Shown: piece after piece, positions 1,152 to 22,594 of the stretch
Position numbering within the stretch: the stretch's first letter is position 1
Layout of the letters: each line of letters opens with the position of its first letter
Source of the DNA: Sphingobacteriaceae bacterium
GTDB lineage: Bacteria > Bacteroidota > Bacteroidia > B-17B0 > Aurantibacillaceae
Length of the DNA: 64,000 bases
Direction: 5' to 3'
Assembly (NCBI GenBank): GCA_947480015.1
Contig: CANKBS010000019.1
Span: 1 to 64,000, forward strand
Notes under the pieces: model-generated
Databases searched by the model: none
The model's input: only the letters and a program-made list of their open reading frames with translations
What the model was told of the DNA's origin: nothing
Position numbers and translations under genes: made by a program

Positions 1152-1527
1152 ATAAAGTAATTTTTAGGTCATAACGGTTATCAAGTTGTTGCTTCAGAAT
1201 AGTGTATATAACCATGGCAATATTCTCGGCTGTTGGGTTCAGGTCTTTAAATTCTTTAACATCTAAATTCAGGTTCTTGTGATCAAAACGTTCAATAATA
1301 TGCACGCGCATGAGTTCACTGAGCACCTTGGTGTCAATCACAAATCCGGTAATGGGATCTATTTCGCCAATTACCCTTACAATGAGGTCGTAATTGTGCC
1401 CGTGATAATTAGCATAATTACACTTACCAAAGGTTGCAGCATTTTCAGCATCACTCAGTTTATCACTGTGTAAACGATGGGCGGCATTAAAATGCTCTTT
1501 TCTGAATACGGCAACTTTATTGCTCAT
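1114..1527 (-). CDS. 6-pyruvoyl-tetrahydropterin synthase / QueD family protein
   Basis: A 137-residue T-fold enzyme acting on dihydroneopterin triphosphate. The first zinc ligand is in HFNAAHRL and the other two in HGHNY. The catalytic Cys sits in GKCNYANYHGH, that is Cys-X5-His-Gly-His. E. coli QueD has Cys-X3-HGH, whereas Cys-X5-HGH is the spacing of the biopterin-type PTPS (PTPS-II). The usual database label of 6-carboxytetrahydropterin synthase may therefore be wrong or incomplete. It is upstream of and overlapping folE, probably co-transcribed, and has a paralogue at 1688-2098. Confidence 0.85.
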   Translation of the reverse strand: MSNKVAVFRKEHFNAAHRLHSDKLSDAENAATFGKCNYANYHGHNYDLIVRVIGEIDPITGFVIDTKVLSELMRVHIIERFDHKNLNLDVKEFKDLNPTAENIAMVIYTILKQQLDNRYDLKITLYETERNYVEFPC

Positions 1528-1687
1528 AATTTAAGTTTTATCAAAAAATAGATGGTGAAGCTATCACTTGATTTTTTTTAATTTTTAAAGCACTGTGTCA
1601 AAAGTTTGCTGACCAAGTGGCTTATGATTGAGAAACAAAACCAAACAAATTTTGTTTAAATTATTTTATTTCGTTTTGTAAAAATAG

Positions 1688-2098
1688 CTAATTTCCGAAG
1701 TATTCTACACAAATACGGGGTGTTTCATATAATTTAACACAGTGTAATTTAACATTTGTCGGCAAATGCGGTGTTATTTGTTGCCAGATGGCAATGGCCA
1801 GATTCTCAGTGCTGGCGAGCACTCCGGCCATAAAGGGGACATCCATATTTAAATTGCGGTGATCGAGTGGTTCGCAAACATAAGTCTGTAAGATCTCACT
1901 TAATTTTTTTGCATCCATTAAAAATCCGGTCTCTTTTTCTATCTCTCCTTTAATGGTTACAATCAATTCATAATTATGACCATGCCAGTTCGCATTGGCA
2001 CATTTACCAAATACCTCCTGATTTTTTTCCTCGCTCCAACCGGTATTATACAATTTATGGGCAGCGTTAAAATGTTCGTGGCGGGTTAAGAATATCAT
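1688..2098 (-). CDS. second PTPS/QueD paralogue
   Basis: A 136-residue homologue of the gene at 1114-1527, with the same HFNAAHKL zinc motif and GKCANANWHGHNY, again Cys-X5-HGH. Both copies keep the C-terminal LYET...VEY segment carrying the substrate-binding Glu, so both look active. A 160-base AT-rich gap separates the two, so they may be expressed separately. Likely an old duplication; one copy may serve queuosine and the other a biopterin-like cofactor. No sepiapterin-reductase gene or other queuosine gene is in the window. Confidence 0.85.
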   Translation of the reverse strand: MIFLTRHEHFNAAHKLYNTGWSEEKNQEVFGKCANANWHGHNYELIVTIKGEIEKETGFLMDAKKLSEILQTYVCEPLDHRNLNMDVPFMAGVLASTENLAIAIWQQITPHLPTNVKLHCVKLYETPRICVEYFGN

Positions 2099-2120
2099 GT
2101 GACGAAGTTAAGCAAATTAT

Positions 2121-2128
2121 TAAATTTG
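2121..2128 (+). promoter_or_regulatory. -7 box TAAATTTG before mqnB
   Basis: Exact match to the Bacteroidota -7 consensus TANNTTTG, ending four bases before the mqnB ATG. If used, transcription would start at or next to the start codon, giving a leaderless mRNA. No clear -33 box was seen. Confidence 0.45.
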
Positions 2129-2132
2129 TGAT

Positions 2133-2786
2133 ATGCAAAAGCTTATTTTGGTTTCAGCCACAGCCGCTGAAATTGAACCGACTCTCAACTATTTAGAAGG
2201 ACAAAACTCCTTTAAGTGGAATACTTTTTTATTGGAAAAAGTGCAAATTACGGTTTGCATTTGCGGTGTTGGTATGTACCATACGGCTTTTGAATTAGGT
2301 AAGTTTAAAGGTGAACACTACGACCTGGCCATTAATGCAGGCTTGGCAGGTAGTTTTGGTCTGTTTGCGAAAGGTGAAGTGGTCAATGTCATCAGCGATT
2401 GTTTTAGTGAACTGGGTGCAGAAGATGGGTCTGATTTTTTAAGTATGGATGATCTGGGTTTTGGTAAACAACATACCAAGATAGTTAAACCTGCCGATTT
2501 GAGAGCCCTGCGCGACTTACCTGAAACTACCGGAATAACCGTGAATACCGTGCATGGGAATGAACGAAGCATTGAAAAAGTTAAAAAACGGTATGCTGCC
2601 GGTGTTGAAACCATGGAAGGCGCAGCCTTTACAGAAGCAACCAACACCTTAGGTTGGAAGGCCATTCAACTCAGAGCCATTAGTAATTTGGTTGAAAAAC
2701 GAAACAGATCGAACTGGAATATCCCCCTGGCTGTAAAAAATCTCAATGAGGTCCTCATCACCATCATCAACGAATTAAACGCTTAA
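2133..2786 (+). CDS. mqnB: futalosine hydrolase
   Basis: Releases hypoxanthine from futalosine in the futalosine route to menaquinone. The 217-residue protein has the nucleoside phosphorylase/MTAN fold: INAGLAGSF early, and VETMEGAA near residue 157, matching the E-S/T-MEGAA ribose-binding motif of MTA/SAH nucleosidases. The tail RAISNLVEKRNRSNWN has the conserved Arg and Asn of the active-site end. It is followed 22 bases later by mqnD, which confirms the pathway assignment over a plain MTA/SAH nucleosidase. Confidence 0.9.
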   Translation: MQKLILVSATAAEIEPTLNYLEGQNSFKWNTFLLEKVQITVCICGVGMYHTAFELGKFKGEHYDLAINAGLAGSFGLFAKGEVVNVISDCFSELGAEDGSDFLSMDDLGFGKQHTKIVKPADLRALRDLPETTGITVNTVHGNERSIEKVKKRYAAGVETMEGAAFTEATNTLGWKAIQLRAISNLVEKRNRSNWNIPLAVKNLNEVLITIINELNA

Positions 2787-2808
2787 CCCGCTTGAAAGCA
2801 ATTTCCCT

Positions 2809-3639
2809 ATGATACTTAGTTTAGCCTATTCGCCATGCCCTAACGATTGTTTTATTTTTGACGCCCTCATTCATAAAAAAATTGACACCGAAGGTCTCGA
2901 TTTTGAGATACACCTGGAAGATGTGGAAACCCTCAACAGAAAGGCATTAAAAGGCGAACTGGATATTACCAAACTGAGCTTTCACGCATACGGTCATGTG
3001 ATTTCAAACTACATCTTATTAAGAGCCGGATCGGCCCTGGGTTTTAATTGCGGACCGCTTTTAGTACAAAAGGACGCGTTTAATTTCAATGATTTAGAGA
3101 CGATGAAAGTGGCCATTCCAGGTAAACTTACGACAGCCAATTTTTTATTGTCATTAGCCTTTCCTAAAATTAAAAATAAAATCGAATATGTGTTTTCAGA
3201 TATTGAAGATGCGGTGTTGCGTGCTGAGGTAAATGCCGGACTCATTATTCACGAAAACCGATTTACCTACGAGCAAAAAGGGCTAAAAAAAGTCATGGAT
3301 TTGGGTGAATTCTGGGATTCTCACATTCATGCGCCCATTCCCTTAGGAGGTATTGTGATCAAACGAAATCGTGATACTCAACTCCAGCAAAAAGTAAATC
3401 GGGTCATCAAACGATCGGTGCAATTTGCATTTGCAAATCCCGAAAGTGCTATGCCTTATGTGCGCGCACATGCACAAAGCATGAGTGAAGAAGTGATGAA
3501 AAAACACATTGCGCTTTATGTAAATGAATTTTCAATCGATCTGGCCGAAACAGGTTCTAAAGCCATTGAACTTTTGTTTGCTAAAGCAAAAGAATTAAAT
3601 CTGTTTGAGGTGAAGGATGAAAAAATTATGATTGATTAG
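2809..3639 (+). CDS. mqnD: 1,4-dihydroxy-6-naphthoate synthase
   Basis: Converts cyclic dehypoxanthine futalosine to 1,4-dihydroxy-6-naphthoate in menaquinone synthesis. The 276-residue protein has the periplasmic-binding-like fold typical of MqnD, with the signature SPCPNDCFIFDA at the N terminus, DITKLSFHAYG, and a His in LIIHENRFTY. It forms a two-gene operon with mqnB. mqnA, mqnC and mqnE are not in the window. Convergent with folA. Confidence 0.92.
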   Translation: MILSLAYSPCPNDCFIFDALIHKKIDTEGLDFEIHLEDVETLNRKALKGELDITKLSFHAYGHVISNYILLRAGSALGFNCGPLLVQKDAFNFNDLETMKVAIPGKLTTANFLLSLAFPKIKNKIEYVFSDIEDAVLRAEVNAGLIIHENRFTYEQKGLKKVMDLGEFWDSHIHAPIPLGGIVIKRNRDTQLQQKVNRVIKRSVQFAFANPESAMPYVRAHAQSMSEEVMKKHIALYVNEFSIDLAETGSKAIELLFAKAKELNLFEVKDEKIMID

Positions 3640-3670
3640 GAACTCTGATCAATTGAAAAAGGACCAGGTC

Positions 3671-3770
3671 TAATCTTCTACCCAATCTCCAATCTTCTAC
3701 CCAATCTCTAATCTCTAATCTTTAATTTATAATCTTTAATCTGTAATCTGCAATCTGCAATCTGCAATCT
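3671..3770. repeat. heptamer array (AATCTNN) between mqnD and folA
   Basis: About fourteen degenerate 7-base units, mostly TTTAATC, TCTAATC and TGCAATC. An 18-base unit starting AATCTTCTACCC is present twice, at 3672-3689 and 3691-3708. The array ends at the folA stop codon, in a convergent gap. A related array lies at 26890-26947, also convergent. Confidence 0.8.
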
Positions 3771-8791: not shown

Positions 8792-9391
8792 ATGCGTTAC
8801 TTTTTTGGCAACCTATTTTTTCTGTTTTCCCACTTGGCCTTTTCGCAACTCATTACCAATTTTAATGCCTTTCAGGTAAGTAAAACGGTGGTGTTAAAAT
8901 TAACCTGGAATGTAGGGGCTAGTTGCAGCGGTTACTCGGTTTATAGAAGTACCGATTCACTTAATTTTACAAGCATCTACGACTATGCAGGTATTTGCGG
9001 CTCCAGTCCGGGTAATTCTGTTTTAACCTATATCGATCAGTATCCTCTAATGGGTTATACCAATTATTATAAAATTCAGTTATCCACACTCGAATCTAGC
9101 GACATAAAAAAAGTGTTGGTAAGCGCTAACCCAAACTCAAAATTACAAGTCTTTCCCGATCCGGTTTTCCAAAATGTGGAGACCCTAAACCTCCGCCTTT
9201 TAAACATTAATGGTAATTCTATTGTTGGCAATATTTTTGATCGGTATGGTACACCTTTAAAACCCTTAAGTTTTTACACCACCACAGGCGAAACCAGCAT
9301 TAATGTGAATGGTTTACATAATGGCTTGTATTTGATTTGGCTCACCGACGGCACACAGTTGTTTGCTTCTAAATTTGTAATTGCCCGCTAA
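8792..9391 (+). CDS. secreted protein with type IX sorting domain
   Basis: A 199-residue protein. The signal peptide (about 1-18) ends AFSQ. Residues ~20-105 look like a fibronectin-III-like sandwich (LKLTWNVGASCSGYSVYRS, TNYYKIQL). Residues ~118-199 match a T9SS type A C-terminal sorting domain: a QVFPDPV start, LRLLNINGN in the middle, and GLHNGLYLIWLTDG followed by a short KFVIAR tail. It is likely cleaved and anchored or released at the cell surface. The stop codon overlaps the ATG of the next gene (TAATG). Confidence 0.8.
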   Translation: MRYFFGNLFFLFSHLAFSQLITNFNAFQVSKTVVLKLTWNVGASCSGYSVYRSTDSLNFTSIYDYAGICGSSPGNSVLTYIDQYPLMGYTNYYKIQLSTLESSDIKKVLVSANPNSKLQVFPDPVFQNVETLNLRLLNINGNSIVGNIFDRYGTPLKPLSFYTTTGETSINVNGLHNGLYLIWLTDGTQLFASKFVIAR

Positions 9392-9797: not shown

Positions 9798-10214
9798 TTA
9801 GATTAGAGAAATCGTTTCTTTATTTAGTGGTTTTTCTAAAACTAAAATTTCTTTCGATATGGCTGAAATTCTGGTGATATCTTTTGGCGATAACATTGAA
9901 CTCATTAATACCGCTTTTGGTCGGCGTGTTTCGTCTGGAAAAACCGCGTGAAATTCTTCTAAAAACCGAAAGCCGCCCCTTTTTAACATATTAAAATCAA
10001 TAATTACGACATCCGGTAAAACGCCGGCGCCACGGGCATGCAATTTTACTTGTTTTTTTAGTTGCTCAATCGACGTCACGGCACAAATTTGGGTTTGGAT
10101 CTTGTTTGCTAATTTGAATAAATGTAAAAGCGTACTACTGACAAAAAGGTCTAGTTCGTTGTCATCAATTAACATCACTCTTTTATATTTAAAGTCAATT
10201 ATCTCCTCAGTCAT
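9798..10214 (-). CDS. single-domain response regulator
   Basis: A 138-residue receiver with no output domain. It has the acidic pair in MLIDDNELD, the phospho-acceptor Asp in VVIIDFNM, a Ser switch residue in LMSSML, and the Lys in LEKPL. It resembles the regulator at 10389-10805 but has its own upstream region carrying a sigma-54-like element and a palindrome. Such receivers usually relay or buffer phosphate for the neighbouring PAS kinases. Confidence 0.85.
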   Translation of the reverse strand: MTEEIIDFKYKRVMLIDDNELDLFVSSTLLHLFKLANKIQTQICAVTSIEQLKKQVKLHARGAGVLPDVVIIDFNMLKRGGFRFLEEFHAVFPDETRRPKAVLMSSMLSPKDITRISAISKEILVLEKPLNKETISLI

Positions 10215-10234: not shown

Positions 10235-10250
10235 TTCAATTATTATGCCA
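10235..10250 (-). promoter_or_regulatory. sigma-54-like -24/-12 element
   Basis: On the minus strand TGGCATAATAATTGAA: an exact TGGCA at -24 and TTG-A at the correct spacing, but with A in place of C in the -12 GC. It lies about 21 bases upstream of the regulator ATG (10214). A palindrome sits 66 bp upstream, centre to centre, as an enhancer would. Confidence 0.4.
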
Positions 10251-10302
10251 GAACGCATCAGTTTGTTTGACAGCTATTTAAAAAAAAACGGGTAAAAAAA
10301 AC

Positions 10303-10315
10303 TCCAGTTATTGGA
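10303..10315. promoter_or_regulatory. TCCA-N5-TGGA palindrome (candidate activator site)
   Basis: TCCAGTTATTGGA, arms of four bases. Read on the minus strand the spacer is ATAAC, close to the ATTAC and ATTAT spacers of the sites at 16444 and 22578. About 95 bases upstream of the regulator start. Confidence 0.4.
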
Positions 10316-10388
10316 CAGATTAACAGAGTTCGGAAATAACAATGCCTATTCACGATTCGTAAATGAAAAGAAAAATGCGTAAAAGAAC

Positions 10389-10805
10389 CTAGAGTTTCTC
10401 TAGAATTTCTTTTGTTAATGGTTTATTTAAAAAAACAATGTTCTCCGATATTTCAAGGGTTTTTTGCCTGTCATTCTGAAATATCGAAGAGGTAAGCACA
10501 ATTAGTTTCGGGTCTATAATTTTCGGATCAAAAAGTCGTTTGAATTCTTTAATAAACTGAAAGCCATCCATCATTGGCATATTAATATCTACAAAAATTA
10601 CGTCAGGGTACATCTTGCTTTCTTGACGGGAAATCGTTACAAGGTTTTTTAAAAATTCCAGAGCTGCTGTGGCACTTGTGTTCACATAAATATTTTTTGA
10701 AAAACCATTGATCTCCAATAATTTTTTATTGATAAAATTATCTAGTTCCATGTCATCAATTAATAACACGTTTTCGTATCTGAATTTAGTATTGGGTTCT
10801 TTCAT
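10389..10805 (-). CDS. single-domain response regulator paired with PAS kinase
   Basis: A 138-residue receiver-only protein: LLIDDMELD (acidic pocket), VIFVDINMPMMDG (phospho-Asp), a Thr/Ser switch in VLTSS, and LNKPL (Lys). It starts ten bases after the stop of the 992-residue kinase, so the two are co-transcribed and very likely partners. Paralogue of the regulator at 9798-10214. Confidence 0.88.
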   Translation of the reverse strand: MKEPNTKFRYENVLLIDDMELDNFINKKLLEINGFSKNIYVNTSATAALEFLKNLVTISRQESKMYPDVIFVDINMPMMDGFQFIKEFKRLFDPKIIDPKLIVLTSSIFQNDRQKTLEISENIVFLNKPLTKEILEKL

Positions 10806-10815
10806 GATTAGAGTT

Positions 10816-13794
10816 TTAGTATTTTTTAAATTGTAAAATAAATTCGGTGCCTTTGTTTACAGTACTTTCAACATTAATTGCGCCACCCAAAGTTTCCAAT
10901 TGCGATTTGATCAAAAACAAACCAAGTCCTTTTCCTTCACCAATACTATGAAATCGCTGATAAAGTTTAAATAGTTTTTCTTTGTGTAAATTAACGTCCA
11001 TGCCAATGCCATTATCATGAAATTTAAAAACAATCCAATTTTCGGTTATTTGACTGGTAATTTTTATGATGAGCGGCCTTTCCTTAGCCCTGTATTTAAT
11101 CGCATTGGATAATAAATTAGTAATAATGCTTTCAAAATAAGCCCGGTTAAAAACTACTGTATCCGTCATACTAAAATCAACCATAATTTTAGCATTTAAT
11201 TCCTTTAGCAAGGGAGCGCTCTGAGTTTTGGCCTGTTCAATGGCTTTTGAAAATTGTAACTCTTCAACTTGAGCCGACGGATTATCTTTTATGGTAAGAA
11301 TGTTAGAAAGGTCTCGGATGGTCTCGTCAAATCGCAGCGCTGAGCTTTTAATCCCATCTAAAATCTGAATAAGAGTTTGGTCTTCTAAATCGTAATTATC
11401 TAACAAATTTGCAAGACCTAATAAATTGGCTACAGGGCCTCGTAAATTATGTGAGGTGATATAGGCAAACTGCTGTAAATCCTTAACATTATGCGTTAAA
11501 ATTTGAAAGAGTTTTTCTTTCTCTTCATTGTTTTTGTTAATCAGTCGCTCGTTTTCTATTCGCTCGGTTATGTTTCTTATAAAACAAGCCGTACCTATCA
11601 CATCGTCATTTTGAACAATTGGAAAAAAGGAAGCTTCTGACCAACCGTATTGATGACCTGCGTTTTTGATTACCTGTGTAAATGTTTCGCCGTCAAATGC
11701 ACGTTTTAAAAGGGGTAGGTGGGTATCAAATAAATGCTTAGTCAAACCACCTTGTGCCATGCTTTCACCTATAATATTTGGCCGACCAATTTCTAACTGA
11801 TTAAAATCGGCAAAGGCTTTATTATAAGAAATTAATTTAAAATCCCTGTCGATACTAAAAATCAAATCGTTGGTATTATTTATTAGCGACTCCAGATTTT
11901 TTCGGTCAAATTCCTTTTCCTGCTCGTTAATTACCTTTTCGGTAACGTCAATTGCTGAAATACAACTACCTATGACTTTATTCTCGGAGTATACAGGACG
12001 AATTACCACTTCAACCCAAATGCATGTTAAACTCTCTAGTACAAATTCACGTCGGTATTCAATTGTTTCTCCCTGTGATGCCTTAAGCAGCGCGTAATTA
12101 AGAAAAGCAATCCTGCTGGGCGCAACAAAATCAAAAAGCGGGCTGCCTATTTGCATTTTAGTGCCAAACAATGTTAACCCTAAATGAAGAGTTTCCTGAT
12201 TAAAGGCTTTGATTTTACCTTCCGCGTCAAGTAGCACAAACCCCTGTGAGGAATTTTCAAAAATGGCTCTTAAATTTCCTTCCGATTCTTTCAGCTTGGC
12301 TTCAGCTAATCTATTTTTGGTAATATCCAATAGACTTAAGAAAACAGCTTCAACCACTTCATTTTTTAAAACCGGTTTAAAACTACAACGCAACCAATAT
12401 GGATTTTCATCGGCGCTGCTGCAATCGGCTTCATGTTCAATGGTTTCTCCTGCCAAAGCCCGCTCAAGCAGTCTTAGGAAGCCCTCGCGGCGCCCCAGAG
12501 CTATACAATCGATGAGATAAACTCCTTTGTGAAGTTTCTTGGACCCTTGATTTAATAGCGCATTATTTTGAGCTTTTGTATTATATTCCTGTAAAATAAA
12601 ATTACGGTCAATTAGAACAAAAGCCTCGCTTGAGTTTTCAAATATGGCTTTGTGGTTTGATACTGATTTGTTAATCCCGCTTTCGGTAATTTTGGTTTCT
12701 GTACTATTTCTGCCGGTAATGGATGCCCCTATCCTTTCGCCTTCTTTGTTAGTAAGTGGCGAAACCGACAATGCTACTGAAATTAATTGTCCACTTTTCG
12801 TCAATCGTTTTGTTTCAACAAACGTGATGTTTTCTCCTTGCTTTATTTTTGATTCCTCTAGTTCCAGTTCATGTTTTAAGTTTTCGGGAACGAGACGTTT
12901 AACTGGCATCCCCAAAGCTTCTTCTTGAGTATATTCAAATAATTTTTCTGCAGCCGGATTCCAGCTAGTAATTAGGCCATTCACATCCTTACTAAATATG
13001 GCATCCTTAGAGGTGTTTATGATGGCAGCCAATAGGGCCCCTTGCTCACTGAGTTTTTCTGAAACAAGGGCATCTTCCATTTGAAAGCAAAAATAACCGG
13101 GCCCGGGTGAATAAAGTGTTACACCAAACCATCGATCAACGTTCGGCGATTTGTATTCTAGTTTTATAACCTGCGCGGTTTTTTCAAGTTCTTGGATACT
13201 ATCAAAAACACATCCTAAATAACTTTTATGATCGGAAAACAGTTCACTTGCCTTTTTCCCTTCTGCACCCTGTATACTAAGTATGGCATTGAGCACTTTG
13301 TTAATATGGATAAATTTAAAATCATTCACCACATCTCCTTCCTTAATGAACCGACAATAAGCAAAACCCTGATCAAAGTTTCCTTCTTTATTTTGAGTTT
13401 CAACTGAAGCTTTAGAATTGAGTTCTCTTCGAAGTTTCGCAATAAAAAGGATCTTAAAAAAATAATGACTTAAAATGGTTGCCAGAGTAGAGGTAAGTAT
13501 ACTTATGCCGATTCCCATAAGCAAGGAATTACCTTCCTTTTCAAATAGAACCGGAAATTGTTTTAAGAGGTTAGGGCGCAGCAAAATTAAAATGGCCAAG
13601 CAGGCTGCCAAACATGTAAAACCCAGTACAATTGATTTTTGCTTTACTGAATGCATACTTAAACCTACTCTATACTTTAGAACTGAATCCTTTGTCCTTA
13701 CCCTACGATAAACTGGGAAGAAAGCATTCCATGCACCTAAATTTAAGAAACCACTAAAAGATTTTAAACTCAATCTTGGCATAATATGACGCAT
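10816..13794 (-). CDS. membrane PAS-domain sensor histidine kinase
   Basis: A 992-residue kinase. Two transmembrane helices (about residues 55-75 and 90-115) precede about five PAS-type domains, in order: a divergent one at ~135-235, then ~245-365 (AIFSKDVNGLITSWNPAAE), ~375-490, ~500-615 and ~630-745. The phospho-acceptor helix at ~765-835 contains SHNLRGPVANL with the His. The ATPase domain (~875-990) has NLLSNAIKYR, DNGIGMD and GKGLGLFL. No receiver of its own; the downstream receiver gene supplies it. The start at 13794 has an alternative Met four codons in. Confidence 0.9.
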   Translation of the reverse strand: MRHIMPRLSLKSFSGFLNLGAWNAFFPVYRRVRTKDSVLKYRVGLSMHSVKQKSIVLGFTCLAACLAILILLRPNLLKQFPVLFEKEGNSLLMGIGISILTSTLATILSHYFFKILFIAKLRRELNSKASVETQNKEGNFDQGFAYCRFIKEGDVVNDFKFIHINKVLNAILSIQGAEGKKASELFSDHKSYLGCVFDSIQELEKTAQVIKLEYKSPNVDRWFGVTLYSPGPGYFCFQMEDALVSEKLSEQGALLAAIINTSKDAIFSKDVNGLITSWNPAAEKLFEYTQEEALGMPVKRLVPENLKHELELEESKIKQGENITFVETKRLTKSGQLISVALSVSPLTNKEGERIGASITGRNSTETKITESGINKSVSNHKAIFENSSEAFVLIDRNFILQEYNTKAQNNALLNQGSKKLHKGVYLIDCIALGRREGFLRLLERALAGETIEHEADCSSADENPYWLRCSFKPVLKNEVVEAVFLSLLDITKNRLAEAKLKESEGNLRAIFENSSQGFVLLDAEGKIKAFNQETLHLGLTLFGTKMQIGSPLFDFVAPSRIAFLNYALLKASQGETIEYRREFVLESLTCIWVEVVIRPVYSENKVIGSCISAIDVTEKVINEQEKEFDRKNLESLINNTNDLIFSIDRDFKLISYNKAFADFNQLEIGRPNIIGESMAQGGLTKHLFDTHLPLLKRAFDGETFTQVIKNAGHQYGWSEASFFPIVQNDDVIGTACFIRNITERIENERLINKNNEEKEKLFQILTHNVKDLQQFAYITSHNLRGPVANLLGLANLLDNYDLEDQTLIQILDGIKSSALRFDETIRDLSNILTIKDNPSAQVEELQFSKAIEQAKTQSAPLLKELNAKIMVDFSMTDTVVFNRAYFESIITNLLSNAIKYRAKERPLIIKITSQITENWIVFKFHDNGIGMDVNLHKEKLFKLYQRFHSIGEGKGLGLFLIKSQLETLGGAINVESTVNKGTEFILQFKKY

Positions 13795-13903
13795 GTATGA
13801 TTTTTATTTTTCTATAAAGTAGATCGGGGCCAAAAAAACAGCTCTTAAAACAGAATGCAGAACAAAGAACCAAGTTTACTGGGTAAGACTTAAACACGCT
13901 GCA

Positions 13904-15130
13904 TTACATATTAAAGTAGATCTTTTTTAATTGAACTCCCCTCACATTCCAGTCGTAGCTCGATTCAAAACGCTCACGGGCATTTAAACTCATACTTAAT
14001 AAAGTTTTTTTGTTCGAATGCAATACCTTAATGGCTTGCGAAAGTTTGGCAATGGTTGAACTGTAATCGCCCGAACTAATCGTAAATCCACATTTATCTG
14101 TGATAAGGTTGGTATTTCCTGAATTATCAAGTCGAATAATCGGTATTCCAGCCGATAAGGCTTCGGCAACCTCCATGCCACTTCCATAATGAGAGGGAAA
14201 AATAAAGGCAGAGGAGTTTCGAAGCATCAGGTTAAATTCTTCAGCCTTCAGCGATTCAATAAATTCGACATTCTTTTCGATTTTATTTTCAGAAACCATG
14301 TTTTTAAAGAGGGCCAACTCAGGACCATTGCCAACTATGAGTAATTTGGTTTTGGCTTTTTCTTCGGTATTTAAACCCGATAAAAAATCGGCAAATGCCA
14401 ATATACTCAAATCAAAGCCTTTTTCAGGTACGAGTTTTCCGGCCGAAATAAGGGTAAAAGATTCAGGCGCAAAATTAATCGTATAACCTTTGTCATGCGC
14501 TGCAATGGTTGGAAGAATGCTGAATCTGGTATTTTTATCTTTTAATAAAGTGGCTGCATTTTGATTCATGCATAAAATATGATCAGCTCTGCTTATGGTT
14601 TGACGCAGGTTAGGTGAAAATTTCCAAATCATTTTTTTAATCAGCCAGTTAAACCGATCTTTTATAAGCCTGGTTTTTTTATACACACGTAAATACTGAT
14701 TCGGAATTAAAGGCATGTGTCCAATTGGCCCCCACACAAATGGTTTATTTAGTTTCCAAAGATAACCTAGGCCATAAGCACTGCCATCGGTAAATTGGTG
14801 TACAATATCGAACTTTAGCTGTTGTTTATTAACGAACTCCGGCACAGCTCTGTGCCATAGTATTTCATAAAAGCCGTCTAGAAAACTTGATTTTTTATAT
14901 TTTCTTTTACTGTTTTTATGGTCGAAATATTCAAATTGAATGTTTTCATAAAGCGGATCCGGGAATTCCAACATGTAAATGTTCATCACCTCTTCATTAT
15001 AACTAGGCGTAATAACTATTACTTTTTGATAACGGGCAATTTGGTATATAAAGTGCCAACTGGCACCGACTTCAAGATTGGCGAAAGGATTTAATGTGTA
15101 AACGCTAGTTAAAATTTTTTTCAATGGCAT
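13904..15130 (-). CDS. GT4-type glycosyltransferase
   Basis: A 408-residue protein with a GT-B fold of the GT4 family. The N-terminal half has WGPIGHMPLIPNQYLR. The donor-binding half has SAGKLVPEKGFDLSILAF, LLIVGNGPEL and the acceptor/nucleotide-sugar loop FIFPSHYGSGMEVAEALSAG with the conserved Glu-X7-Glu pattern. It follows the APH-fold gene by 34 bases, so the two probably form an operon. The sugar and acceptor are unknown. Confidence 0.85.
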   Translation of the reverse strand: MPLKKILTSVYTLNPFANLEVGASWHFIYQIARYQKVIVITPSYNEEVMNIYMLEFPDPLYENIQFEYFDHKNSKRKYKKSSFLDGFYEILWHRAVPEFVNKQQLKFDIVHQFTDGSAYGLGYLWKLNKPFVWGPIGHMPLIPNQYLRVYKKTRLIKDRFNWLIKKMIWKFSPNLRQTISRADHILCMNQNAATLLKDKNTRFSILPTIAAHDKGYTINFAPESFTLISAGKLVPEKGFDLSILAFADFLSGLNTEEKAKTKLLIVGNGPELALFKNMVSENKIEKNVEFIESLKAEEFNLMLRNSSAFIFPSHYGSGMEVAEALSAGIPIIRLDNSGNTNLITDKCGFTISSGDYSSTIAKLSQAIKVLHSNKKTLLSMSLNARERFESSYDWNVRGVQLKKIYFNM

Positions 15131-15164
15131 AGTTACCTATAAAAAGTGGTCTGGTTGATTAACA

Positions 15165-16349
15165 TTAAAAAGCATAAACTGAACTTTCATCTAATTCAGA
15201 TTGGTTTATATTGAGCGTTTCGGTTAGCGCTTCTTTCCATGTTCTAAGCGAGTGATTTGTTTCTAGTGGATTCACGCTGTATTCAACGTAAAATTTTAAA
15301 TAATTTATACACGTATAAACTAAGTACAACTGAAGGTGTTGCTCGATAGTACCTTTTTGAAATCGCGATAAAGCCTCAAAAGTGTCGCTAGTGATTTTTT
15401 TGTTAATCTCTTTTCGGATGGTCTTCCAGTTACTCTTGTCTACCAATAAGCCTTGTTGAATGATGAAATGGAAAGCATCGAACCCAACCGGCTTTATTAC
15501 ATTCGATAGCTCCCAATCGAAGATATAAAGCTTCAGATCTTTTTCAAACATGTTTTCAGAACTAAAATCACCATGACTTAAACACATTTCTACGGGTTTG
15601 TTTTCATTGGTGTTTTCAATGATCTGATTTAACATGTATAACAAATTCTTAGGTAAGCGCGAGTCGTCGCGTTTCATCAGTTCGAGCAGATCTTCTTTTA
15701 ATTCCCGCCAGCTTTTCAATTCATTTAAAGGCGTTAAAAAAGCAGTGAGTTCATTTAACTCGGATAAAGCCATGGTGTGTAAATTACAATACTCATGTAA
15801 TATAGTTCCATCATGAGAAATATCATCGAGTTCAACTGCGTTAGGGCTAACGTTAATCGTGTTTGGGATAGCAAAAGAACGAATACGGCTCTCATTTAAG
15901 CGATCAAGCACCATCGTTTCATTATGAATTAATGCTATACTGAGCGGGTGGGTAGCTATTTTTGTAAAACTCCCCTTGCCATTAATAACTTTGTATAACA
16001 TAGCTTTTTCAAGCTGAATGCTTTTGCGAACAAAAAGTGTCCACTGCGCATAACGACTTGACAATTCAGCTTCTTTGCTTTTATCTTTTACGTATAATGA
16101 TTTTGACGTAAAAAACAGTTTTTGCAAACGCAATAAAAAGATAAGCTTGCAGCCAAAAGAAAGTAAAATATTTATGAATGATTTACTGCCACGAAACTTC
16201 AAAAATAAAGCTTTGTTTAAATTAGCCGGCCAAGCATAACGAATACTCTTATCCCAGTTGCGAACAACCAGTAATTTTATTTCCGAATTAAAAACAGAAC
16301 TTCTGGTTTCTGAAACCGTGTAGCCTAATTTTTCAAAAATAGTTATCAT
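15165..16349 (-). CDS. APH/choline-kinase-fold phosphotransferase
   Basis: A 394-residue cytoplasmic protein of the aminoglycoside-phosphotransferase fold. The catalytic loop LSHGDFSSENMF supplies the Asp and Asn, and the metal-binding LYIFDWELS follows ~16 residues later. The N-terminal ~200 residues are divergent and lack a clear glycine-rich loop. Such proteins in glycan loci usually phosphorylate a sugar or lipid-linked precursor; antibiotic resistance is unlikely given the context. It heads an operon with the GT4 gene and has a sigma-54-like element and two palindromes upstream. Confidence 0.75.
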   Translation of the reverse strand: MITIFEKLGYTVSETRSSVFNSEIKLLVVRNWDKSIRYAWPANLNKALFLKFRGSKSFINILLSFGCKLIFLLRLQKLFFTSKSLYVKDKSKEAELSSRYAQWTLFVRKSIQLEKAMLYKVINGKGSFTKIATHPLSIALIHNETMVLDRLNESRIRSFAIPNTINVSPNAVELDDISHDGTILHEYCNLHTMALSELNELTAFLTPLNELKSWRELKEDLLELMKRDDSRLPKNLLYMLNQIIENTNENKPVEMCLSHGDFSSENMFEKDLKLYIFDWELSNVIKPVGFDAFHFIIQQGLLVDKSNWKTIRKEINKKITSDTFEALSRFQKGTIEQHLQLYLVYTCINYLKFYVEYSVNPLETNHSLRTWKEALTETLNINQSELDESSVYAF

Positions 16350-16374
16350 AATGCCATATTTACGTTACGTGCAT

Positions 16375-16390
16375 TACAAAATAATCGCCA
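16375..16390 (-). promoter_or_regulatory. sigma-54-like -24/-12 element
   Basis: On the minus strand TGGCGATTATTTTGTA: TGGC at -24 and TTG at the correct distance, with T in place of C at the -12 GC. It lies about 26 bases upstream of the APH-fold gene ATG. The palindrome at 16444-16458 is 68 bp upstream, nearly the same geometry as at 10235-10315. Confidence 0.4.
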
Positions 16391-16443
16391 AACTTATAAT
16401 ACACTGATTATCATAGTGTTAAAAGCGTTCAGAAAGTGTAAAA

Positions 16444-16479
16444 TTCCAGTAATTGGAAACAATTTCCACAAATGGAAAT
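16444..16479. promoter_or_regulatory. tandem palindromes TTCCA-N-TGGAA (candidate activator sites)
   Basis: Two inverted repeats: TTCCAGTAATTGGAA at 16444-16458 (5-base arms, spacer 5) and ATTTCCA-CAAA-TGGAAAT at 16462-16479 (7-base arms, spacer 4). Their centres are ~19 bp apart, about two helical turns. Doubled sites upstream of a sigma-54-like element are typical of NtrC-class enhancers. Confidence 0.5.
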
Positions 16480-16525: not shown

Positions 16526-19500
16526 TTAAGAAAGATTTTCTTTTTCAAGATTATCGATCACTTTGCGAAGTACCTTTTGGGTATAATGTAGTGAGGTGAT
16601 TAAATTTTCAGAGTAAAGCCCTGCTTTCGCTGAACGTTCAAGTTCGAGAATCTCATTTTTTAAACTCACAATGCCTAGTCCATCAATGCTGGGTTTGATG
16701 CGATGCGCAATCTGATATATTTGCTGTGTGTTTTTTGATTCAATTGCTGTATTAAAATCGGTTATCGCATCTTTGGATTGCTTAATGAAGATAAAAATCA
16801 TTTTAGCGAATTGCTCCGAGTCGCCCTGACATAGGCCGCGCAGCATGGTAAGATCATATAGCCCCTTAGTAGTTTTAGCTGCAATATTCATAGGTTGTGG
16901 TTTTTCAGAGACAATGTTTTTATATACGGTATCGATTAATAGTTTTTCTTCATAGGGTTTGGTTACATAACCATTCATGCCAATTTTCATACACAAATCA
17001 ATTTCATTTTTGAAGGCATTGGCTGTTAAGGCAATTATTGGCGTGGTATTATGTAACACATTTCTAATAATTCGAGTTGCTTCAAGCCCATCCATTACGG
17101 GCATTTGAAGGTCCATTAAAATCACATCAAAATTTTCTTTTTTCACTAAGTCAACGGCATCAGCACCATTAACAGCTTCTGAAACAATACAGTCGTGGCG
17201 GTTAAGTGTTTTAATGGCGACCAATCGGTTAAATTCGTTGTCTTCGGCCAGTAAAATTTTTATTTTTTTGCCCGTCGGGTTCATCCGAATCACTTCCTGT
17301 GCTTTAATTCCTTTTTCATCGCCAATAGGTAGCGTAATATTAAATTTAATGGTAGTGCCTTTGTTTTTGCTACTTTCTACATCAATACTTCCTTGCATCA
17401 GGTGTATTAATTCTTGTGAAATGGCCATACCTAAACCGGTACCACCGTATTTACGCGAGGTGGAAATGTCCTCCTGTGAAAATTTATTGAAGATGTTTTT
17501 TACATAAGTTTGGTCCATGCCAATTCCCGTATCCACAATACTTATTTGTAATTTTTGTTCTGTTTTCGATTCGTTGAGCAAATCACATTTAATGGTAATG
17601 CCGCCGGTGTTGGTAAATTTGATGGAGTTGCCTATGAGGTTTATCAGAATTTGTTTTAACCTAACTGGGTCGCCGGCAAACATTTTTTTAACACCAGGCG
17701 CCACCGATAATTTTAAATATAAATTTTTCTCCGAAGCTTTGTTTCCCATGATGGAAATCACCTCTTTTAAAATAGCATTCAGATTAAAATTCTGCAAATC
17801 CAATTGAAATTCGCCAGCTTCAATTTTTGAAATATCCAGAATGTTATTTAAAACAGAATATAAATGTTGCGAGGCAGTAGAGGTATTATCCAAATAGACG
17901 CGTTGATTGGAAGTTAAATTTTCGAGCGATAATTCTCTAATCATACCAATGATGGCATTTAATGGGGTTCTGATTTCGTGACTCATATTGGCCAAAAAGG
18001 CTTCTTTGGCTTTGGACGATTCTTCAGCTTTTTGTTTCGAAATCTCCAGTTCATGCTCAAGGGTTTTTCTTTCCGTTACATCTAGGTGAATACCAATGGA
18101 CCCGATTAATTTACCGGCTTCATCATAATTTGGCGCCCCACTTATCATCCACCATTTTAATTCACCTTTTTTGTTTTTAACCTGAATTTCATAAATATCA
18201 GAAATGCCGTTTAAACGTTGAGGTGTTTTATGGCCGATAGTATTCTTCAGGGTTTCAGGAACTATTAATTCTATAATGTTTTTACCTAAGAGTTCTTCTT
18301 TTGTATAACCCGATAATTCACAAAAGCCCTGATTGCAGAATTTAATAAGTTCTTGTTTATCCACTTCTACCAAACCAAGGTTCATGTTGTCGATAATGTT
18401 GCGGTATTTTTTTTCCTGCAAAAAGATGCTGCGTTCGTGAATTTTCCGTTCGGTAATATCAATGGCTAACACCGTTAATTCAAAGTCGTTGTCAGGAAGC
18501 GGCGTGTATTGTACACTCTGACCAATCCATTTTTCTTGAGCTGACTTGGTTACAATAGGGAATTCAAAATATGTTGTTGGTTTTTTTGTTTCAACCTGAT
18601 CGCGGTAAAATACAATTGCTCTTTTTCTATAGTCCTCATGAATTAAATCACTATAATGCTTGTGGTAAAGTTCGCGCGCTGAAAAACCAGTAATACGCAC
18701 GCCAACCGGATTTACAAATGTAAAAAAGCCGTGTTTGTTGATTTTATAAATAATGTCGGTCGACTTTTCAATGATGTTTTTGTACTTTTCTTCACTTATT
18801 TTTAAGGCTTCCTGCGCTTGTTTTTGTTCTGAAATGTCACGTGCAATACCTAAAAAGCCTGTAATCTCACCCACCGAGTTTTTAATAGAACAAATAGTAA
18901 GTGATACCGGAAATCTCTGTCCGTTACTTCTAATATATGTCCATTCGCGGCGTTCAGCTATATCGCGGCGAGGATACGTTACAAAAACTTCAAAACCGGG
19001 TTCAACTTTTTCAACTAACTCTCCCGACAATTCTTCTGCACGAATACGAATTTCATCAGAAAGGTGAAATAATGAAGGGTTTTGTTTATCAATCATTTCC
19101 TCGGCTTTATACCCGAGCATTTTTTCTGCGCCTTTATTAAAGGTTTTAATGGTTCCTACTGCATCGGTAAAAATAATAGCATAATTGGTGCCGTTTAAAA
19201 TAGCTTCCTGCATGTTATTGAGGTAACGCAGATTGTTTTCATTTTGTTTTCGATCGGTTATGTTTTTATAATGCCATAAATGACCTTTGTAATTATTGTG
19301 AATGAAAATCGGAATAAAATCACGCTCCAGATATCGGCCATCGGCCAAGGCCAGCTCTTCCGATATCACCGGCTTACGTTCCTGTAAGGCTTTATTCACG
19401 CCGGTTAAAAAACCATGAGGATCTTTAAAGAGGATTTTACTTTGTTCGGCCGATTGTGAGCAATCCGCTCCGCGTAAACTTTCGGGATCAACCGGTATGT

Positions 19501-19981
19501 TAAATAAGGCACAAAATTGATCGTTGGTATAAAGTATTTTTCTATTCTCATCTTCAACCAAAATACCCGAATGTAAATTGGTTAATAAGGTTTCGAGTAA
19601 ATTTACGGTGCGACTTAATTCGCGTTCTATGCCTTTTCTGCCTATAATCTGTTCATTGAGATAATCAGCTATTACCAGTAAATCATCATCTTTTTCACCA
19701 ACTTTTATATCAATTGATAAATCTATTTTTTTAACCGCCTGTTTTAATTTTTCAACCGAACGTTTTTTAAGTTCATATTCTTTAAGCAGGTTATTGTTTA
19801 CTTCCTGATATTCTGATTCGCTTATTTTAAAGGCGTGATTAATCAATTCACGATCGCGTTCGTTTGCCTGATAACTTTCATTGACGGAATTTAAAAAATC
19901 TAGAATACCAGGATCGTTTTTACAATCTTTAGGAAGATGTTTTTTAATCTGTTTTTCAAGTAATTTATGATAGCGTTTCAT
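16526..19981 (-). CDS. cytoplasmic PAS hybrid histidine kinase with receiver and HPt
   Basis: A 1151-residue protein without transmembrane segments. An N-terminal helical region (~1-125) is followed by four PAS domains (about 130-245, 250-390, 395-515, 520-645). The kinase core comes next: FLANMSHEIRTPLNAIIGM with the phospho-His (~675), then the ATPase domain (NLIGNSIKFT, GTGLGMAIS). A receiver (~905-1025) has LLAEDNEFNR and VILMDLQMPVMDG. A C-terminal HPt domain has AHRIKPSIDGLG. All modules for an internal His-Asp-His relay are present. The ATG follows the FIST gene stop by one base; FIST sensors are typically partnered with such kinases. Confidence 0.93.
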   Translation of the reverse strand: MKRYHKLLEKQIKKHLPKDCKNDPGILDFLNSVNESYQANERDRELINHAFKISESEYQEVNNNLLKEYELKKRSVEKLKQAVKKIDLSIDIKVGEKDDDLLVIADYLNEQIIGRKGIERELSRTVNLLETLLTNLHSGILVEDENRKILYTNDQFCALFNIPVDPESLRGADCSQSAEQSKILFKDPHGFLTGVNKALQERKPVISEELALADGRYLERDFIPIFIHNNYKGHLWHYKNITDRKQNENNLRYLNNMQEAILNGTNYAIIFTDAVGTIKTFNKGAEKMLGYKAEEMIDKQNPSLFHLSDEIRIRAEELSGELVEKVEPGFEVFVTYPRRDIAERREWTYIRSNGQRFPVSLTICSIKNSVGEITGFLGIARDISEQKQAQEALKISEEKYKNIIEKSTDIIYKINKHGFFTFVNPVGVRITGFSARELYHKHYSDLIHEDYRKRAIVFYRDQVETKKPTTYFEFPIVTKSAQEKWIGQSVQYTPLPDNDFELTVLAIDITERKIHERSIFLQEKKYRNIIDNMNLGLVEVDKQELIKFCNQGFCELSGYTKEELLGKNIIELIVPETLKNTIGHKTPQRLNGISDIYEIQVKNKKGELKWWMISGAPNYDEAGKLIGSIGIHLDVTERKTLEHELEISKQKAEESSKAKEAFLANMSHEIRTPLNAIIGMIRELSLENLTSNQRVYLDNTSTASQHLYSVLNNILDISKIEAGEFQLDLQNFNLNAILKEVISIMGNKASEKNLYLKLSVAPGVKKMFAGDPVRLKQILINLIGNSIKFTNTGGITIKCDLLNESKTEQKLQISIVDTGIGMDQTYVKNIFNKFSQEDISTSRKYGGTGLGMAISQELIHLMQGSIDVESSKNKGTTIKFNITLPIGDEKGIKAQEVIRMNPTGKKIKILLAEDNEFNRLVAIKTLNRHDCIVSEAVNGADAVDLVKKENFDVILMDLQMPVMDGLEATRIIRNVLHNTTPIIALTANAFKNEIDLCMKIGMNGYVTKPYEEKLLIDTVYKNIVSEKPQPMNIAAKTTKGLYDLTMLRGLCQGDSEQFAKMIFIFIKQSKDAITDFNTAIESKNTQQIYQIAHRIKPSIDGLGIVSLKNEILELERSAKAGLYSENLITSLHYTQKVLRKVIDNLEKENLS

Positions 19982-19982
19982 G

Positions 19983-21125
19983 CTAAAGTTCGTCGAAAGT
20001 GGTTATGGTCATCGTTTGATTGTGTAACTCACATTTTCCTTGATGAAAAACCGGAGAAATTTCACCATACGAATAAAATCCGGTTAATGCCACATCATTT
20101 CCGAAAACATCGGCAACGGCTTCTATTTCCTCTTCCACACGTTTACCTAAAATTAATTTTCGTCCCACACAACTTATTAAAATTGCTAATTTAGGTAATT
20201 GATGTTCATCTCGCTGAATGCTTTGTTGCGCGGCAATACTTGCTGCATCAACCAACTGATCGATGTTTGATTTCATAAATCGCACTTTCGATCCAACTGG
20301 CACATCACCGGCAAAAATCATGCTTTTGTTTTCCTTATTTATGCCAAGAATCGTTCTAACAACCGGTTCTACATCTTCACTTTGTTTAACCGAAAGGGGG
20401 AAAAATAAAGCTGAGCCCGGTAAATCGTCGGCATAAACGCCCAAGTATTTTTTGTAAAGGTCTAATGCGTTTTTATGGTCAATTTCAAAAAGTAGATTGT
20501 CTTTCGAATGGGTGACTGTTTTTTCCATGCCAAAGTTTTCCCAGCCTGCCATAGTGCCATGAGCTATTTTAATGGAGGGGCCATAAAAACCAATGGCTAA
20601 AACATTACCTTCTTCAGCTGGAGCATTTAAACCTACGCGGGTTGATTTGAATGCAACACCATTACCTGCCAAACCACCGGTTACAGGAATGTTGCTTAAA
20701 ACTAAACTGTTTATTCCATTCACTAACTGACTGCCGTTAACCTTTTCACCATCCGATAAAACAAATACATAACGTAAATCTTCTTTTTTAAGCTGACTGA
20801 TTAATGCAACCCCCGCATCAAAACTCGAACTAAAGTTGTTGATAGTTAGCTCAGCACATTGTATCTCTGTTTTTTCAAACTCAATAGCTGTTAACGACAC
20901 ACAATCTTCCATCACCTCATTTCCAAAAATTTCCCCTGCCGTGGAGCACAAGGCAATATTTGCATTTGGAAAACGATTTTTAATTTGTTCGTAAAATAAA
21001 GAACCGCCGAGTGTGGCCGTATTTCCAAAACCTAATACAAGTTGTGATTTTTCTTCGGAGAAGTTAGGACTTAAATGACTTTTATCAAGAAGTTCTTCAC
21101 GGTATAGGTAGGTAGCGGTTTTCAT
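19983..21125 (-). CDS. FIST-domain signal sensor protein
   Basis: A 380-residue cytoplasmic protein with FIST_N (roughly residues 25-215: LVLGFGNTA, LCSTAGEIFG, VTGGLAGNG) and FIST_C (roughly 220-370), ending with the diagnostic GFYSYGEISP. FIST domains are proposed small-ligand (perhaps amino-acid) sensors fused to or next to signalling enzymes. It sits between the sigma-54 activator (22 bases upstream) and the hybrid kinase (one base downstream), so it is probably the sensory input of that kinase. Confidence 0.9.
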   Translation of the reverse strand: MKTATYLYREELLDKSHLSPNFSEEKSQLVLGFGNTATLGGSLFYEQIKNRFPNANIALCSTAGEIFGNEVMEDCVSLTAIEFEKTEIQCAELTINNFSSSFDAGVALISQLKKEDLRYVFVLSDGEKVNGSQLVNGINSLVLSNIPVTGGLAGNGVAFKSTRVGLNAPAEEGNVLAIGFYGPSIKIAHGTMAGWENFGMEKTVTHSKDNLLFEIDHKNALDLYKKYLGVYADDLPGSALFFPLSVKQSEDVEPVVRTILGINKENKSMIFAGDVPVGSKVRFMKSNIDQLVDAASIAAQQSIQRDEHQLPKLAILISCVGRKLILGKRVEEEIEAVADVFGNDVALTGFYSYGEISPVFHQGKCELHNQTMTITTFDEL

Positions 21126-21147: not shown

Positions 21148-22509
21148 TTAATTAATGAGCAATTCTTTTTTCTTAATCATGTTGTAAATGGTTGATTTGC
21201 CTACATCTAATTTATGCGCCACTTCCATCACATCATTGTTGTATTTTTTCATAAACAAGGCTATTATGTCGAGCGTATATTCTCTTAGTGTTTTTTCAAC
21301 GGACGTCAGTCGTTCTTCGTTTTGTAATGAATTGTAAGTGATGTCTTCAGCTTTAATTTCTTCACCATTACACATTACGCAAGCCAAATCAACTATAGAT
21401 TTTAGTTCACGCACATTACCTGGGTAATTATACTTGAGCAGTTTTTCTTTGGCATTATTTGAAATGTGTAAATGCTTAATGCCGTTTTCTTTGGTAAACT
21501 CTTCCATAAAATGCTTCGCCAAAATCAACACATCATTTCCTCTTTGACATAAAGGCGCTAAGTCTATTGGTAAACCAATGATCCTATAAAATAAATCTTC
21601 ACGAAATGCTTTCTTTTTAACTTCTTCAGATAAATTTTTATTTGTTGCAGTAATTAAACGGGCATTAAATTTTATTTTTTCGCGGCCGCCTAAGCGCACC
21701 ACTTCACGTTCTTGCAGCGCTCTTAAAATTTTACTTTGTAAGTTTAAATCCAACTCAGCAATCTCATCTAAAAACAAGGTGCCACCATTAGCTTCTTCAA
21801 ACTTTCCTATCTTCCTACCTGTGGCCCCTGTAAAGGCACCCTTCTCGTAACCAAACAATTCACTTTCCATTAATTCGCCGGGAATTGCAGCCATATTAAC
21901 GGCAATAAAAGGTTTCTTTTTACGATCGCTGTTATAATGAATGGCCTTAGCTATTACTTCTTTACCTGTTCCAGTTGCCCCGGTAATTGATACGTTGATA
22001 CTCGCTTTCACTGCTTTTTCAATAAGCACAAAGGTTTTTTTAATGGCATGGCTCTGCCCTAATATAGTTTTTTCAAAACTATATTTTTGTTCGAGTTTTT
22101 CCTTGAGTTCTTCTACCTCTTCCTTTAGTTGCGTGTTTTCTTTTATTTTTAAAATAGCATTCCACAATAGTTCCTTGGTATTGTCATTTTTTATAAAGTA
22201 ATCACTGGCCCCGGCTTTTAAAAGGTTTAAAGCAACCGAAATTTCTTCTTGCCCACTAATTATAATAACAGGCAGGTTTTTATTCACCGCAAGAATTTTC
22301 GCTAACAACTTATCACCCGTCATGTCCGGTAATTCATAATCAATACTCACCACATGGGGTTTTTTGTATAAATTATCGAGGCACTCTTTAGCGCTCATGT
22401 ACAAAAAAACTTCATACTCGGGGTTTAAAGAGAGATGGTGCTTAAGGAGATTGCCAAACCAAGGATCATCTTCAACCAAAAAAATTTTTAATGCGTTCAT
22501 TTTAGACAT
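21148..22509 (-). CDS. NtrC-type sigma-54-dependent response regulator
   Basis: A 453-residue activator. Residues ~6-120 form a receiver (LVEDDPWFG, phospho-Asp in VVSIDYELPD). Residues ~145-380 are the AAA+ domain: Walker A GATGTGKE, the sigma-54-contacting loop GAFTGATG, Walker B GGTLFLDEI, and an R-finger region FREDLFYRI. Residues ~415-453 are a Fis-type helix-turn-helix (VMEVAHKLDVGKSTIYNMI). An intact GAFTGA loop means it should open sigma-54 promoters. First gene of the operon with FIST and the hybrid kinase. Met4 (22500) is an alternative start. Confidence 0.93.
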   Translation of the reverse strand: MSKMNALKIFLVEDDPWFGNLLKHHLSLNPEYEVFLYMSAKECLDNLYKKPHVVSIDYELPDMTGDKLLAKILAVNKNLPVIIISGQEEISVALNLLKAGASDYFIKNDNTKELLWNAILKIKENTQLKEEVEELKEKLEQKYSFEKTILGQSHAIKKTFVLIEKAVKASINVSITGATGTGKEVIAKAIHYNSDRKKKPFIAVNMAAIPGELMESELFGYEKGAFTGATGRKIGKFEEANGGTLFLDEIAELDLNLQSKILRALQEREVVRLGGREKIKFNARLITATNKNLSEEVKKKAFREDLFYRIIGLPIDLAPLCQRGNDVLILAKHFMEEFTKENGIKHLHISNNAKEKLLKYNYPGNVRELKSIVDLACVMCNGEEIKAEDITYNSLQNEERLTSVEKTLREYTLDIIALFMKKYNNDVMEVAHKLDVGKSTIYNMIKKKELLIN

Positions 22510-22577: not shown

Positions 22578-22594
22578 TTTCCAATAATTGGAAA
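22578..22594. promoter_or_regulatory. TTTCCA-N5-TGGAAA palindrome (candidate operator)
   Basis: Perfect 6-base arms around ATAAT. Same motif as at 10303 and 16444, located 22 bp upstream of the TATCTTTG box. Binding here would block RNA polymerase, suggesting negative autoregulation by the activator. Confidence 0.5.

Follow-up and report, generated by a model that had tools for sequence, protein, structure and literature searches.

Two putative sigma-54 promoters at near-constant distance from palindromic elements in a genome of the Bacteroidota

Genes and elements at the locus

The first 64,000 nucleotides of contig CANKBS010000019.1, from a bacterium placed among the Sphingobacteriaceae (Bacteroidota, family Aurantibacillaceae in GTDB; assembly GCA_947480015.1) and here called the window, contain two short sites resembling the -24/-12 promoters of sigma-54 RNA polymerase, each at nearly the same distance from a TCCA-N5-TGGA palindrome (Table 1). 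Very probably the two sites are sigma-54 promoters of a single regulon, in which a phosphorelay, an activator bound to the palindromes and a bent dyad would act together in the way proposed below. At the level of sequence, support comes from the genes, the motifs, their geometry and the dyad. The pairing of enhancer and promoter, which the original prediction had read from the window alone, gains weight from its recurrence in related genomes and from an activator gene close by. Beyond what that prediction noted for these sites, the window holds a palindrome at 22579-22593, an imperfect one at 16463-16478 and the dyad at 16397-16421.

All genes read from 22509 down to 9798 lie on the minus strand. 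At their head stands an activator gene whose product combines a receiver domain with an AAA+ domain bearing GAFTGA, as is expected of the NtrC family; in an alignment of 21 sequences its D57 is invariant and the GAFTGA region is conserved. This protein is the likely binder of the palindromes. Sigma-54 is at hand, rpoN having been found in the genome (E 1e-50), so that the prediction does not fall for want of this gene; the sigma-54 activator family has seven matches in the genome, three of them strong, one in the window. A palindrome upstream of the activator gene probably serves its autoregulation, and no sigma-54-type promoter for the gene was seen in the window at the usual gap from it. In several relatives the palindromes at the activator gene adjoin, as judged by eye, TAnnTTT-like boxes, which suggests autorepression.

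Table 1. Features of the window, with positions on the forward strand
Feature	Position	Strand	Sequence, evidence or remark
Putative sigma-54 promoter 1 (-24/-12)	16375..16390	minus	TGGCGATTATTTTGTA; pattern match and alignment
Putative sigma-54 promoter 2 (-24/-12)	10235..10250	minus	TGGCATAATAATTGAA; pattern match and alignment
Putative enhancer palindrome of promoter 1	16444..16458	none	TTCCAGTAATTGGAA; TCCA-N5-TGGA 13-mer at 16445-16457
Putative enhancer palindrome of promoter 2	10303..10315	none	TCCAGTTATTGGA; outer bases of the 15-mer unmatched
Imperfect second palindrome	16463..16478	none	TTTCCACAAATGGAAA; some 19 bp farther upstream than the main palindrome (16444..16458)
25-bp dyad, mirrored IHF consensus	16397..16421	minus	TAACACTATGATAATCAGTGTATTA; 15/16; between palindrome and promoter 1
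Weak dyad	10256..10280		11/16; corresponding place of promoter 2
Palindrome upstream of activator gene	22579..22593	none	TTCCAATAATTGGAA
NtrC-family sigma-54 activator with receiver domain	21148..22509	minus	Sigma54_activat E 3.4e-67; Response_reg E 7.7e-17
FIST-domain protein	19983..21125	minus	FIST E 1.2e-39; FIST_C E 1e-38
Hybrid histidine kinase (PAS, HisKA, HATPase, receiver)	16526..19981	minus	domain matches; adjoins activator in relatives
Kinase/phosphotransferase-like protein, first gene of operon 1	15165..16349	minus	APH just under cut-off
GT4-type glycosyltransferase	13904..15130	minus	Glycos_transf_1 E 3.1e-23; 51% identical to glycosyltransferase of the G030 operon
PAS sensor histidine kinase, probably in operon 1	10816..13794	minus	domain matches
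Stand-alone receiver-domain protein 1	10389..10805	minus	Response_reg E 5.7e-12
Stand-alone receiver-domain protein 2, putative target of promoter 2	9798..10214	minus	Response_reg E 6.5e-5, under curated cut-off
tRNA gene	36813-36883	minus	

Spacing of palindrome and promoter

Both promoter sequences were recovered by pattern search on the minus strand, with TGGC, and hence GG, at -24 and TTG at the proper distance for -12; their centres, said to lie 66 and 68 bp from those of the palindromes, are 66.5 and 68.5 bp away when counted by hand. Expressed as gaps, the distances are 52 bp (promoter 2) and 54 bp (promoter 1) from the 13-mer, or 51 and 53 bp from the 15-mer TTCCA-N5-TGGAA, and the promoters end 20 bp (promoter 2) and 25 bp (promoter 1) before the start codons at 10214 and 16349. 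The promoter pattern by itself is not rare (five in the window, 3.47 expected) and the palindrome by itself is mildly enriched (four, 1.02 expected). Their conjunction, a palindrome followed after 45-60 bp by TGGC-N7-TTG, occurs three times, against a mean of 0.0025 in the 400 first-order Markov windows used as chance model, none of which held two such pairs. The third instance (palindrome at 9168, gap 45) falls within an open reading frame (ORF), 8792-9391, and looks like chance.

Comparison with relatives carries the argument further. The window activator was set beside 15 others with an identity of at least 62%, and beside a second group at 44-55%. With at most one mismatch, the palindrome core stands within 300 bp upstream of the activator gene in 11 of the 16 near cases (exactly in 6), against 4/11 (exactly in none) in the second group (Fisher p 0.10 and 0.027, respectively); palindromes are sometimes tandem, 18-20 bp apart. 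Across 16 loci (L055-L070; G, C and L numbers label genomes, contigs and loci), fetched for the activator only and holding 34 intergenic palindromes in 67 orientations, GGCA follows TTCCA-N5-TGGAA at a gap of 51-54 bp twelve times, where 0.76 was expected (p 4e-11). In a wider locus set with 43 palindromes, 17 of the 49 GGCA occurrences have this gap, and a genus-wide pattern search of 40 genomes gave 36 matches, with the gap in 7/15 from activator-bearing and 1/21 from other genomes (p 0.005), G062 being put among the latter without an activator test. A test set of 20 more activator loci (55-67% identity), drawn from a class-wide search with activator matches in 72 of 395 genomes, some of them met before, yielded six occurrences against 0.45 expected; looser matching adds two loci, L346 and L334, the latter with TGGCATCATGATTGT, a dyad of 16/16 and a palindrome mismatched at one base. 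The activator search of genome contigs gave a best identity of 54% among the matches listed. A relaxed pattern, TGG-N8-TT at gap 40-69, was also tried: among 16 genomes with the activator it matched 188 times and its reversed control 116 times, among 16 others 134 and 77 times, which is no difference, and many of the matches listed look coding by eye.

The original prediction had remarked that both sites lack the C of the -12 GC, and had seen in this either a weakness or a local preference of sigma-54. The observation stands, GC being found at neither window site (GT at promoter 1, GA at promoter 2), and a strict GC is excluded for the regulon; C is common here, though not required, with a pyrimidine preferred. 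After the -12 G, the 32 aligned sites have T in 12, C in 11, A in 6 and G in 3. Of the 22 that were not selected on this element, 19 retain the G; the position that follows has C in 9, T in 9, A in 2 and G in 2 of the 22. In an alignment of 26 sites the -12 positions T, T or G, and G are kept in 22, 24 and 23, followed by T in 9, C in 8, A in 6 and G in 3. Promoter 1 thus has the usual base, and the A of promoter 2, a minority choice (6/32), is shared with polysaccharide promoters of G010 and G026. Two further regulon promoters in the same genome (G000), on contigs C24 and C7, both have GC. From 25 rows the alignment omits L060 minus 11654, L061 minus 292 and L069 minus 15131, and it includes L156 4251, though outside the intergenic filter.

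Several observations weigh against this reading. No palindrome was found upstream of 5 of the 16 near activators, and the range of 51-54 bp was set after inspecting a histogram that included loci L055-L070, though it covers the window's own 15-mer gaps of 51 and 53 bp. In the test set a palindrome of the required form is present in only 10 of the 20 loci, and five of the six matches at the favoured gap come from one genome, G147. Three matches of the score list, L061 4605, L062 125 and L158 4871, have a gap of 51-54 and yet are absent from the alignments, and both the dyad and the site list were defined after the data had been inspected. The C-terminus of the activator has no Pfam helix-turn-helix match at E 0.001, although a sequence resembling one can be made out by eye. 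Farther away, TTCC-N7-GGAA is matched in 4 of 10 loci with activators at 47-55% identity, where no convincing full unit was found; the candidate L225, with TGGCA at gap 52 after a palindrome, lies within an ORF and has no dyad. The layout thus has good support among the nearest relatives, and farther out its occurrence is patchy. Within the window, the -24 element of promoter 1 is GGCG rather than GGCA; promoter 2 has the commoner GGCA and a fitting geometry, its palindrome falls short of the 15-mer at the outer bases and its dyad is weak (11/16).

The genome's own count belongs to the same side of the balance, TGGC standing at a 13-mer gap of 52-55 for 3 of its 38 TCCA-N5-TGGA palindromes, both window pairs included, against 1.3 expected (p 0.15). 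Together with single motifs near expectation, it is what speaks for taking both window pairs as chance meetings of motifs that are each common in an AT-rich genome. This explanation is very improbable in view of the Markov windows, of the dyad of promoter 1 (15/16) and of the equal layout before a related gene in relatives; for promoter 2 taken alone, chance may still be the explanation. The genome alone would be no proof of a link between palindrome and promoter; the proof is comparative.

A further point against promoter 1 is its overlap with TAAGTTTG, a fit to the sigma-A -7 box of Bacteroidota. The palindromes could be operators of the activator at genes that are read from sigma-A promoters with TAnnTTTG at -7, TGGC-N7-TTG being then coincidental. 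In Flavobacterium the sigma-A box is TAnnTTTG (PMC9723704, in the part available), and boxes of the TAnnTTT kind adjoin palindromes at some relatives' activator genes, as noted above. Yet GGCA and the T and G of -12 are kept at a fixed gap across differing target genes, and TAnnTTTG stands near the promoter in a single one of the 32 aligned sites, which makes this alternative improbable.

A dyad between palindrome and promoter

When the 32 sites are aligned at TGG, the spacer shows conserved columns, with A at -29 in 30 of them, and these columns form a dyad, TAA-N4-YTGAT-N-ATCAR-N4-TTA, the best match of which starts 31 bp (20/32) or 30 bp (8/32) before TGG. Its halves are the Escherichia coli IHF consensus YAANNNNTTGATW (PMC5963220, in the part available) in opposite orientation about one centre. 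The complement of that consensus, WATCARNNNNTTR, placed at -19 before TGG, scores on average 5.97 of 9 over the 32 sites and 6.13 over the 23 non-redundant ones, and none of 2000 spacer shuffles reached either mean; agreement with the consensus holds across the sites, while single sites vary. For the dyad as a whole the mean is 12.53/16 against 9.54 in shuffled spacers, a comparison that is partly circular, the dyad having been written from the same sites; promoter 2 scores 11 against a shuffled-spacer average of 9.5. A search of 0.99 Mb for the dyad only, at 14/16 or better, returned 36 places; GG lies at the fitting distance in 19 of them (about 3.3 expected), of which 15 have the palindrome as well (about 0.04 expected). 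Once the 12 places used to write the dyad are set aside, GG is found at 7 of 24 (about 2.2 expected) and the palindrome at 3 of 24 (about 0.03 expected), expectations and split having been worked out by hand. The dyad suggests a bend in the DNA that fixes the spacing of enhancer and promoter: a spacing as nearly invariant as the one observed is to be expected if activator and polymerase are brought together by a bend at a fixed place.

FNR half-sites lie 4 bp apart. This spacing bears on a rather unlikely, though serious, alternative, in which the layout is correct and the dyad serves a second transcription factor as its operator, one of the FNR/CRP kind for example, with no bending involved. 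The half-sites TTGAT and ATCAA do resemble those of FNR, and the dyad is symmetric, which the known IHF consensus is not; they are, however, separated by 1 bp rather than 4. Moreover, at its outer ends, TAA-N4 and N4-TTA, the dyad agrees with the IHF consensus (PMC5963220, in part), and the interval between enhancer and promoter is a common position of IHF at RpoN promoters (PMC7962754, in part). If the dyad is a bending site, a possible binder is encoded by an HU-family gene (L008 8432-8713, on G000:C7), about 3.3 kb downstream of the C7 regulon promoter.

Putative target genes, proposed regulation and known systems

The kinase-like protein at the head of operon 1 is 50% identical to residues 3-380 of an 805-aa protein that heads a putative polysaccharide operon in G030, a locus which itself came out of the promoter pattern search. 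The C-terminal half of that protein and the next gene of G030, for an acyltransferase, are missing at this place of the window, so that operon 1 seems to be a reduced form of a surface-polysaccharide operon, combined with genes for a sensor kinase and a receiver. A gene related to its first gene is present in 7 of 120 genomes. Where the start region was examined (G000, G010, G026, G030, G049 and G057), a palindrome lies upstream in all six (three families) and TGGC follows at a 15-mer gap of 53-54 in five (two families); the sixth, G049, has its nearest TGGC at gap 66, counted by hand, and a poor -12. Further putative targets are small receiver proteins, small secreted proteins and, in G030 and G049, FG-GAP surface proteins with a Por_Secre_tail domain. 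The C24 promoter of the window's own genome precedes a 165-aa protein and, behind it, an ORF of 2966 aa or more (L155 1-8898, G000:C24, minus strand), repetitive by eye; Pfam has no match for the former or for the first 950 aa of the latter, nor for the two small proteins behind the C7 promoter, secretion being judged by eye in both cases.

One relative shows what may be a different kind of target. On the minus strand of L337 (G147:C9:253000-272900), at about 1502-3722, palindrome, spacer and sigma-54-type promoter come in five units, each promoter being followed by 181-197 nt of conserved, apparently non-coding sequence that ends in a terminator-like hairpin with paired changes. Four of the five have no ORF of 40 codons, and in the other a 60-codon ORF begins close to the hairpin and extends beyond it; the one unit for which a fold was computed does better than its shuffles (z -2.57). 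The array adjoins the activator gene, on the opposite strand. L337 has no Rfam match at the gathering threshold. A covariance model built from G147 (R1) found the five units in L337 together with two opposite-strand matches; across 49 sources its best E outside L337 was 0.08, with no convincing member in the other 48, which leaves G147 the only genome with the array among the sources searched.

Put together, the genes and sites would work as follows. A phosphorelay of the FIST protein and the hybrid kinase (16526-21125) would activate the NtrC-family regulator, which would then bind TTCCA-N5-TGGAA palindromes, at times in tandem, and from there contact sigma-54 RNA polymerase. The polymerase would sit at a -24/-12 element, for the most part GGCA followed by T, T or G, and G; comparison shows the TGG of this element to begin 51-54 bp downstream from the palindrome. 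A protein of the HU/IHF family would bend the intervening dyad. Promoter 1 would drive operon 1, with its polysaccharide-type genes, sensor kinase and receiver, and promoter 2 the second receiver. Beyond the window, we put forward only tentatively that a part of the Bacteroidota may possess its own rigid type of sigma-54 promoter, made of a palindromic enhancer, a symmetric 25-bp site for a homodimeric, sequence-specific bender of the HU/IHF family and a -24/-12 element independent of the -12 C, at fixed distances, through which one FIST/hybrid-kinase relay would drive genes for polysaccharide, for signalling proteins and for giant surface proteins, and also, in a single lineage, regulatory RNAs in a tandem array comparable to that of Qrr in vibrios. 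Searches for sigma-54 targets in genomes of the group can make use of the enhancer sequence, of the rule for the spacing and of that for -12, and the sites tie such targets to genes for polysaccharides and surface proteins. With its symmetry and its fixed place, the IHF-type site also offers a direct test of whether a homodimeric HU/IHF protein acts site-specifically in sigma-54 initiation.

A literature search turned up little on sigma-54 control in Bacteroidota and no report of this enhancer motif, which is no proof that none exists. A case from the same phylum is the SM4 regulon of Flavobacterium psychrophilum, where sigma-54 promoters serve exported-protein and gliding genes as well as protein quality-control genes, with three PF00158 activators; in the part of that source available, no enhancer motif, spacing or bending site is described (PMC9723704). 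According to a survey, sigma-54 is generally connected with the exterior of the bacterial cell (PMC3162934, in part). In Proteobacteria, PrsK-PrsR brings genes of the PEP-CTERM/exopolysaccharide type under sigma-54 by similar means, an NtrC-like response regulator with a putative activator motif upstream of -24/-12 (PMC1569441, in part), and the best NCBIfam match of the window activator is indeed PEP_resp_reg (TIGR02915, PrsR), at 360.5 bits, under the cut-off of 502.6; spacing at PrsR promoters is variable (32-92 nt, standard deviation 10.6), against 51-54 here (PMC1569441, in part).

A FIST gene beside a hybrid histidine kinase gene also recalls NosP-NahK; here the score for NosP (NF041558) is 61.8, against a cut-off of 450, and the output appears to be a sigma-54 activator. 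The array of G147, with sigma-54-type promoters before tandem RNA-like units beside the activator, is reminiscent of LuxO-Qrr in vibrios, from which it differs in lacking an Rfam match, in phylum and in its restriction to one genome among those searched. Similar in architecture are the IHF-assisted sigma-54 promoters of Proteobacteria, with the same order of enhancer, IHF-type site and -24/-12 (PMC7962754, PMC5963220, both in part). In contrast to these, the site found here is mirrored into a 25-bp dyad, the spacing varies by 3 bp, the phylum is Bacteroidota and the binder is a predicted one.

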